64,000 nt of DNA from Fimbriimonas ginsengisoli Gsoil 348. GTDB taxonomy: Bacteria; Armatimonadota; Fimbriimonadia; Fimbriimonadales; Fimbriimonadaceae. The stretch spans positions 3,038,001-3,102,000 of the forward strand of contig NZ_CP007139.1 of the NCBI RefSeq assembly GCF_000724625.1, given 5' to 3'. Each line of letters starts with the position of its first letter. Position 1 is the stretch's first letter. This document shows, one piece after another, positions 51,281 to 53,035 of this stretch. The notes under the pieces were generated by a model, which was not told where the DNA came from, searched no databases, and was given only the letters and a program-made list of their open reading frames with translations. Made by a program: the position numbers and the translations under genes.

Positions 51281-51428
51281 GGCATGGGCTTCCATCCCAT
51301 GTGTATCACGACCATCCTGGTCGTATGACCGGGCCAAGGGCAGGATGCCCTTGGGACCCACTGGCAAGATGCCAGTGGCACGAGCATCGGCTTCCCGCTG
51401 ATGGGCCCTACGACCGTCCTGGTCGCGT
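51281..51428. repeat. String of six short palindromic modules
   Basis: Hairpins follow one another: CATGGGCTTCCATCCCATG, ACGACCATCCTGGTCGT, CCAAGGGCAGGATGCCCTTGG-type, ACTGGCAAGATGCCAGT, a CATCGGC/GCTGATG one and a second ACGACC/GGTCG. The first 49 bp are the reverse complement of 7416-7464 with very few changes. Confidence 0.8.
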
Positions 51429-51500
51429 AAGAATCGAATGTCTCGAGATTTCCCCACGACTTATCCCCATTTGCCTGTGGAAAAAAACTTGAAATAACCC

Positions 51501-51529
51501 TTGGCATCGGATTCAAAAAGGCGTATCTT
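51501..51529 (+). promoter_or_regulatory. Sigma-70 promoter for the structured ncRNA
   Basis: TTGGCA (51501-51506), a spacer of exactly 17 bp, and TATCTT (51524-51529). Initiation would fall near 51536. No good protein start with a ribosome-binding site follows. Confidence 0.65.
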
Positions 51530-51535
51530 AAACAT

Positions 51536-52035
51536 GCGAACCGCGGTGGAGAATGGTCCACCGGAAGACGGAGAAATCCAGAAGAAATCGAGGCACCGCC
51601 TCGAACGGAGAGCACGCAACGAGCGGCGGGGAACTCCCGCCGGTGGCTCCGCAAGGAGTCAAGCCGGGCAGTACTTGGACGTCCGGTGCGATGCGTCAGC
51701 CGACCGCGACTGTATCGGGGCCTCTTGGACCAGTGCCCAGATTCTAGTAGCGCCGAAGAGCCAAGCTCCTCTTCGGAAGCAACGGGAGGTTTTTGGTTTT
51801 CTGCTCCCTTGGCCGGGACGTGACGACTGAGACGGCCGAGTGTAGGAACGAACGGGTGTACATCCGCAGTTTCGCCCAGAAAACCATGGCTTAGGTGAGA
51901 GAGGTCGCCGTAAGGTGGCGCTCGATCCGAAAGCCAGCTCCGAGCGGGGCCATTCCTTCGGGAGGCCGTTCCGCCAGGAGTAAAAAAGCGTGAGCGCGCC
52001 GACAGGCTTGCCTGTCGGCGCGCTCCGTGTTTGTT
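51536..52035 (+). ncRNA. Candidate large structured non-coding RNA (~490 nt)
   Basis: The stretch is bounded by a promoter and a strong terminator and is full of local hairpins with stable tetraloops. Examples are GGTGGA/TCCACC (51545), GAGGC/GCCTC (51590), GGCTCC-GCAA-GGAGTC (51645), CCGAAGAG/CTCTTCGG (51753), GGGAG/CTCCC (51784) and a CC-TTCG-GG loop in GGCC...GGCC (51949). GGGCA (51666) can pair with TGCCC (51733), and GAACGG (51603) with CCGTTC (51967). I find none of the conserved blocks of RNase P RNA, tmRNA, 6S RNA or SRP RNA. Identity unknown. Confidence 0.55.
51992..52035 (+). terminator. Terminator of the ncRNA
   Basis: GAGCGCGCCGACAGG and CCTGTCGGCGCGCTC form a perfect 15-bp stem with a CTTG loop, followed by CGTGTTTGTT. 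Confidence 0.8.
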
Positions 52036-52171: not shown

Positions 52172-53035
52172 ATGGTGCTGCCCGCGCTGATTATCGGCCT
52201 TGCGATCAGCGCTGCCGGCTGCCAAAACAAGCCGACCGCCGCACCTCCGGCCGCGCCGACCTTGGTGGAAGCCGACCTGCCCACCGGCACAAAGATTCAA
52301 GGCATGCTGGCAAAGCAGCTCGAGTCGGGCGTCGACGACGAAGGGAGTGTGGTCCCGATGATCGTCGCCGCCGATGTGAAAGATTCAGCCGGCCATGTTC
52401 TGATTCCCAAGGGAACCCCGATGCAGGGGCACGTGACCTGGTCCCGGCGAGAAGGAACCCTCGGCAGCCTGGTGAATCGCCCGGCTCGACTTAAGTTCGC
52501 CTTCGACACCACCGTTGCCGCCGATGGCCAACCTGTCGATATCTGCGCCGACCCAAACAAGGTGGACGAGCCCTTCGAGCTGAATCGAGGAAATACCGGC
52601 ATCGCGGGAGCGGCCGTCGAGCTGGATTCGGTCCCCCTCGATTCTCGAGACGAGACCACGTTGACCGCAATGACCCAACTGTTCGAGAACGGCGACGCCC
52701 GCGATCTCGAATCCGCCGAGGGCCGCGCCCGCCTTCAAGCGCTCGCGGAAAAGCTGCGCCTTCCCGGCCTCCAAAACCTGGCCCAGCAGAACGACGTCGG
52801 CAAAGTCCGCGGTTTGCTCGACCAGCTTCGCAAAGGGAACTCCCTCGCCCGCCTCGCCCCCGCCGCGATGGACGGCCCGATGACAATGGCCGCGGTAATG
52901 GAAATGTCCCAACTCGCCCAAAAAGTCAACGACCGCCTCAACAAGGCTTCCCACGGAAGAAACATCAAGGCCTACATCGGCACCCCCGTCGTCGCCTACG
53001 TGAAGGCTCCGCTGAAGGTAAAAGTTCAGTCCTAG
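52172..53035 (+). CDS. Lipoprotein of unknown function
   Basis: A 287-residue lipoprotein starting at ATG 52172 (MVLPALIIGLAISAAGC, lipobox Cys 17). A GTG at 52121 in the same frame would add a longer n-region. Residues about 30-130 (LPTGTKIQGMLAKQLES...VVPMIVAADVKDSAGHVLIPKGTPMQGHV) resemble the small beta-barrel seen in TrbI/VirB10-like proteins and related 'GT-I-L/ IPkGS' modules, a loose resemblance only. The rest is helical. No partners nearby suggest a secretion system. Confidence 0.7.
   Translation: MVLPALIIGLAISAAGCQNKPTAAPPAAPTLVEADLPTGTKIQGMLAKQLESGVDDEGSVVPMIVAADVKDSAGHVLIPKGTPMQGHVTWSRREGTLGSLVNRPARLKFAFDTTVAADGQPVDICADPNKVDEPFELNRGNTGIAGAAVELDSVPLDSRDETTLTAMTQLFENGDARDLESAEGRARLQALAEKLRLPGLQNLAQQNDVGKVRGLLDQLRKGNSLARLAPAAMDGPMTMAAVMEMSQLAQKVNDRLNKASHGRNIKAYIGTPVVAYVKAPLKVKVQS

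Follow-up and report, generated by a model that had tools for sequence, protein, structure and literature searches.

A predicted family of large structured RNAs in the Fimbriimonadaceae with a conserved operator-like promoter element

Introduction

Membership of the 6S RNA class rests on binding of the RNA polymerase holoenzyme and templating of pRNA, and membership of the OLE, ROOL, and GOLLD classes on the formation of RNA homo-oligomers. 6S RNA (RF00013) and Ms1 (RF02566) are encoded by stand-alone structured RNA genes, and RNase P RNA and tmRNA are bacterial RNAs of a similar size range to the one described here. OLE, ROOL, and GOLLD are long, elaborately folded, noncoding bacterial RNAs whose function is poorly understood (PMC12286853).

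Here we analyze a locus of Fimbriimonas ginsengisoli Gsoil 348 that lies in a 64-kb window of its chromosome (the whole stretch of DNA that was analyzed; plain positions refer to it). Like 6S RNA and Ms1, the Fimbriimonas RNA has a structured, stand-alone gene, but it is not matched by their models and differs from them in fold and size. By kind it is akin to the other poorly understood large structured bacterial RNAs (PMC12286853), with an unusual promoter element; it differs from OLE, ROOL, and GOLLD in having no covariance match to them, in not being linked to phages, in its range of a single family, and in the DnaA-box-like element at its promoter. We found no published description of this RNA in the open-access literature.

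DnaA is a known transcription factor with the box TTATCCACA and binds the ftsZ promoter in Caulobacter, whereas the boxes that precede ftsZ in E. coli proved inactive; a review of DnaA makes no mention of a small RNA under its control (PMC8203912). The DnaA-regulated ftsZ and gcrA genes of Caulobacter carry 9-mer DnaA boxes at the promoter (PMC8203912), as does the locus described here, where, however, the predicted product is an RNA.

Results

A predicted stand-alone transcription unit with a stable fold

The original prediction proposed a new large class of noncoding RNA with its own promoter and terminator, a view that is supported by the absence of any matching Rfam family and by clear covariation among homologues. 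The gene was first delimited as 51501-52035; its upstream limit is better set at 51461, because a conserved operator-like inverted repeat, overlooked at first, is located there (Table 1). It lies at 3.09 Mb of a genome consisting of a single contig of 5,231,762 bases.

Both the predicted promoter and the predicted 15-bp terminator stem are present. Within the window taken alone, the promoter matches at only 9 of 12 positions, with one such site found against 0.4 ± 0.6 expected. A counterpart of the -35/-10 pair is found at all 16 homologous loci, its distance from the core roughly constant, with a spacer of 17 nt in 15 of them and 16 nt in one. Fifteen of these loci terminate in a strong 3′ hairpin, followed in most by a T-run; the T-tract on the plus strand of the F. 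ginsengisoli copy is weak (CGTGTTTGTT).

The dense structure noted originally is borne out by folding: the transcript has an energy of -238.5 kcal/mol compared with -204.6 ± 6.9 in shuffled sequences (z = -4.9), and none of 100 shuffles is as low. Thirteen of the 16 homologues have z-scores of -3 or less, and the scores are weaker for L060 (-1.25), L069 (-2.4), and L070 (-0.9). The two tetraloops that had been read from the sequence are also there: the GNRA loop GCAA at 51651-51654, in the context CTCC-GCAA-GGAG, and UUCG inside 51948-51967.

Table 1. Features of the RNA gene, with positions in the window
Feature	Position	Strand	Evidence
Inverted repeat TTATCCCCA-N6-TGTGGAAAA, two DnaA-box-like 9-mers	51461-51484		Layout kept in 9 of 16 loci
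Sigma70-type promoter TTGGCA-17-TATCTT	51501-51529	+	-35/-10 pair at 16 of 16 loci
ncRNA, about 500 nt	51536-52032	+	Ends inferred from -10 box and terminator; fold, homologues, covariation
P1 hairpin (CGGUGGA/UCCACCG)	51544-51563	+	15 sequences; 19 cells changed on both sides, shuffled mean 4.1
P3 hairpin (UCGAGGC/GCCUCGA)	51588-51604	+	Fold; local hairpin by eye in several homologues
P4 hairpin (CGGCGGG/CCCGCCG)	51624-51642	+	11 sequences; 19 cells changed on both sides, shuffled mean 8.3
P5 hairpin, GCAA loop	51645-51660	+	11 sequences; 12 cells changed on both sides, shuffled mean 4.1
P6 hairpin (CCGGGC/GUCCGG)	51664-51686	+	Recurring hairpin by sequence reading, no separate score
P7 core stem, conserved apical loop CUUGGACCAGU	51705-51752	+	13 pairs, 91.8% paired (16 sequences), both-side changes at 6
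CUUGG, 5′ half of proposed pseudoknot	51724-51728	+	Complement of 51761-51765; pairing possible in 97.5% of cells, almost invariant
P9 core hairpin (CCGAAGA/UCUUCGG)	51753-51776	+	7 pairs, 91.1% paired, both-side changes at 5
CCAAG in P9 loop, 3′ half of proposed pseudoknot	51761-51765	+	Pairs with CUUGG at 51724-51728
P10 hairpin (CUUGGCCG/CGGCCGAG)	51808-51840	+	8 sequences; 11 cells changed on both sides, shuffled mean 2.5
Small hairpin GGGUGUACAUCC	51854-51865	+	UGUACA/UGCACA loop recurs in seven homologues, by reading
Intrinsic terminator, 15-bp stem	51992-52034	+	Stem itself 51992-52025, 12 GC, loop 4

A conserved core in a variable molecule

Covariation among homologues, by which the original prediction was to be checked, is found both in a central core and in helices P1, P4, P5, and P10, the arms of these four having been picked by eye. 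The core consists of P7 with its apical loop CUUGGACC followed directly by P9 with its CCAAG loop. Across 16 sequences, 91.6% of the cells in the core pair, and 11 of the 20 pairs are altered on both sides. The covariation score is 0.389; shuffles give 0.163 ± 0.019, and slid controls never exceed 0.115. The alignment was fitted to the structure and so favors it.

The apical loop of P7 and the loop of P9 may additionally form a pseudoknot, a possibility tempered by the near invariance of CUUGG and CCAAG. Outside the core, the 3′ domain of the RNA varies from genus to genus. The loop of the small hairpin reads UGUACA in L002-L005, L018, and L056 and UGCACA in L057.

Neither a coding region nor a known RNA

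The original statement that the region holds no credible open reading frame agrees with the comparative data. Open reading frames of 109, 64, and 343 amino acids (the last antisense) have no Pfam match, and those of the window run into stops when read through in the relatives. A coding function is rejected because the gaps between homologues, mostly not multiples of three, shift the frame, and because the substitutions show no codon phase. The covarying pairs and the lack of coding constraint together characterize a structured noncoding RNA.

The RNA falls outside every Rfam 15 family when compared by covariance. The whole 64-kb window has no match at the gathering cut-off, a permissive scan of the RNA region returns chance matches only, with no T-box or riboswitch among them, and a scan of seven homologous loci detects two tRNAs and nothing else. 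The absence of housekeeping RNA signatures noted originally also fits the genome, which encodes RNase P RNA and tmRNA elsewhere (256 bits and 159 bits, respectively), so that a divergent form of either was discarded as an identity for the locus.

Homologues are patchy and confined to one family

A nucleotide search of 61 genomes identified five relatives, all in the same genus as F. ginsengisoli; a sixth came from R1, a covariance model built on the core, and two further loci from scanning 84,980 species with a pattern. Across all 85 Fimbriimonadaceae genomes, covariance model R2 detects 16 loci, spread over 15 genomes and 5 out of 32 genera, with scores (44-105 bits) well apart from noise. 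A search of 291 genomes of the phylum gave only two weak extra matches (L058 and L059, 25-27 bits), and a third model (R3) found no new locus above 24 bits in the remaining genomes of the family. These two matches and the weaker ones to R3 (24 bits or less) lack the promoter and core, resemble ordinary unrelated DNA, and were rejected. The results of the covariance and pattern searches thus mark this, at the level of sequence, as a real family, patchy and confined to the Fimbriimonadaceae within the genomes searched. Only seven of the 20 genomes of the Fimbriimonas genus have the RNA, and this patchiness means that it is not essential across the family.

The RNA is 335-517 nt long over the 15 terminated loci, and 481-517 nt in eleven of them. 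The exception, L060 (G019), has lost its 3′ half, in place of which it continues into a PQQ-repeat protein gene. There is a single copy in 14 out of 15 genomes; G031 is the sole genome with two (L056 and L057), which are much diverged from each other. The sequence at L034 (JADZEW010000008.1) is titled Methanoregulaceae archaeon, but its RNA and genes are near-identical to those of the Fimbriimonadaceae metagenome-assembled genome at L039, and the title is probably wrong.

The flanking genes are ordinary and diverse (leucyl-tRNA synthetase, aldo/keto reductase, citrate synthase, enolase, and glycosyltransferase, among others), and we found no neighbor common to the RNA loci. Downstream of the RNA in G012, the gene at L063:9767-10555 has a weak Pfam match (31 bits) to the anthrax lethal factor N/C domain, and its product is probably a metallopeptidase-fold relative. 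In the window, two 42-nt intergenic repeat units, 74% alike and 102 nt apart (51282-51425), sit between an arabinofuranosidase gene and the RNA.

An inverted repeat of DnaA-box-like half-sites

The right half of the inverted repeat ends 16 nt ahead of the -35 box, and the center of the repeat lies ~64 nt ahead of the start site. The family consensus is TTWTCCACA-N6-TGTGGAWAA. Nine of the 16 loci have both halves at the same position with a gap of 6-7 nt, and 13 have the right half there. At 11 loci the repeat outscores every control window of its own locus (among them L062 and L074, where the gap is longer). The two g12 genomes have the right half-site only, and the repeat is weak at L067, L070, and L073. 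Allowing up to two mismatches, the 5.2-Mb F. ginsengisoli genome has one site, which is the RNA locus. At three mismatches there are five further sites, uninformative since the reversed control gives two.

Each half of the repeat matches the DnaA box at eight of nine positions in F. ginsengisoli, and one half matches at all nine in several relatives. The F. ginsengisoli genome paper reports only three exact DnaA boxes (PMC4072686), which we located at 4343474, 4555912, and 5202800. The last is intergenic, upstream of mraZ-rsmH, and is preceded at 41 bp by TTATTCACA, a spacing unlike that of the repeat; this pair, TTATTCACA...TGTGGATAA, occupies L127:12615-12955 (G000:C1 near 5.2028 Mb). The repeat also has a perfect copy (TTATCCACA-N6-TGTGGATAA) in G017, a genome without the RNA, where it lies with a third box upstream of ftsZ (L122:1730-1915, G017:C5); a hairpin and then a T-run come between them. 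The identity of the half-sites and the mraZ and ftsZ cases favor DnaA-type control, and judged from the 9-mer, the protein acting at this candidate site is most likely DnaA. A replication origin at this position was rejected, since the genome has dnaA at 0.4 kb and its predicted origin at 5.13 Mb (PMC4072686), compared with 3.09 Mb for the RNA.

A second set of RNAs is predicted in G002, a genome without the Fimbriimonas RNA. The stretch L121:1480-2690 (G002:C6:1656479-1657689) carries three structured RNAs in tandem, related to one another, about 220-280 nt long, and each with a terminator-like hairpin at its end. They match neither R3 nor Rfam, and their 3′ hairpins covary. Upstream of each is an inverted repeat of the TTATNCACA type together with a promoter; in two of them, as read from the sequence, the repeat once more lies 16 nt from the -35 box and the promoter spacer is 17 nt. 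These look like a second RNA family under the same control.

Discussion

By sequence comparison, we have shown the promoter, terminator, conserved helices, conserved core, and noncoding nature of what is, on these predictions, a new structured RNA family with a conserved operator-like element. The explanation that we propose, to which we give an even chance, is that it is a single-copy, independently transcribed, trans-acting RNA under DnaA-type control that acts through its fold. A regulator bound to the inverted repeat would set the level of the RNA, and the best candidate, DnaA, would tie it to replication or the cell cycle. The RNA might then act on a protein, as its scaffold or decoy, with RNA polymerase, the ribosome, and some cell-cycle factor as examples of such a partner; such a role appears likeliest because conservation resides in the fold and two loops and not in a long unpaired segment. 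The near-invariant loops of P7 and P9 may be the active site, or a pseudoknot that holds the core together.

The identity of the regulator is the part of this explanation with the most substantial competitor. It is quite conceivable, if short of probable, that a dimeric regulator other than DnaA binds the repeat and that the RNA serves its stress or metabolic response: the site is symmetric and very rare, and its constant 6-nt gap and constant distance from the -35 box are typical of a dimeric activator. Yet both half-sites match the DnaA box, and the further occurrences seen precede mraZ and ftsZ. As to what the RNA binds, a role like that of 6S RNA or Ms1, replacing a 6S RNA apparently missing from the family, seems to us unlikely. 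It is kept open because none of the 85 family genomes has a 6S match, which is weak evidence since the same model detects 6S RNA in only four of the 14 control genomes, a set that includes four archaea; the size and the stand-alone, strongly terminated gene would also fit. Against it, the Fimbriimonas RNA has no covariance match to RF00013 and does not show the long hairpin of the 6S type, with its open central bubble; its Ms1 score is 14 bits where the cut-off is 162, and it is missing from most of the 6S-lacking relatives too.

Other modes of action fare worse. That the RNA belongs to a mobile element (as omega RNA, retron, or intron) or is an ornate RNA borne by phages is disfavored and in our judgment very improbable; the patchy distribution and a transposase fragment near one copy (L072) would be in keeping with mobility, but the copies are nearly always solitary, share no flanking protein, and have no match among viral contigs, phages, and plasmids. 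The original prediction also raised the possibility of a long leader RNA for the lipoprotein gene at 52172; a leader of this kind would be a riboswitch or an attenuator. The lipoprotein gene does lie downstream in the same direction, as does a homologue in one other genome only (G016, L062), but over the 16 loci there is no conserved same-direction downstream gene such as a cis-acting leader or T-box would have: neighboring genes differ, and at seven loci the next one downstream is convergent. With this, the terminators, and the lack of a T-box or riboswitch match, the leader reading is refuted as a general explanation, and we hold it to be exceedingly improbable. We would put a CsrB/RsmZ-type sponge holding CsrA on repeated GGA loops lower still; the length is similar and some P1 loops contain GGAGG, but the GGA count departs from shuffles by no more than 2 SD in 15 of the 16 RNAs, and hairpin loops contain few of the copies.

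Returning to the DnaA-controlled structured RNA, we tentatively suggest a broader scheme, itself rather unlikely as it stands, in which DnaA would control a large structured RNA dedicated to linking chromosome replication with cell division in the Fimbriimonadaceae, with exchangeable RNA parts. The scheme draws on at least one relative, G002, where three tandem RNAs of different sequence would be driven from promoters laid out alike. Large structured bacterial RNAs are rare, and this one comes from a poorly studied phylum; its host is a cultured type strain, so the RNA is testable. If the predicted DnaA control is true, the RNA would be placed inside the circuit that connects replication and division.
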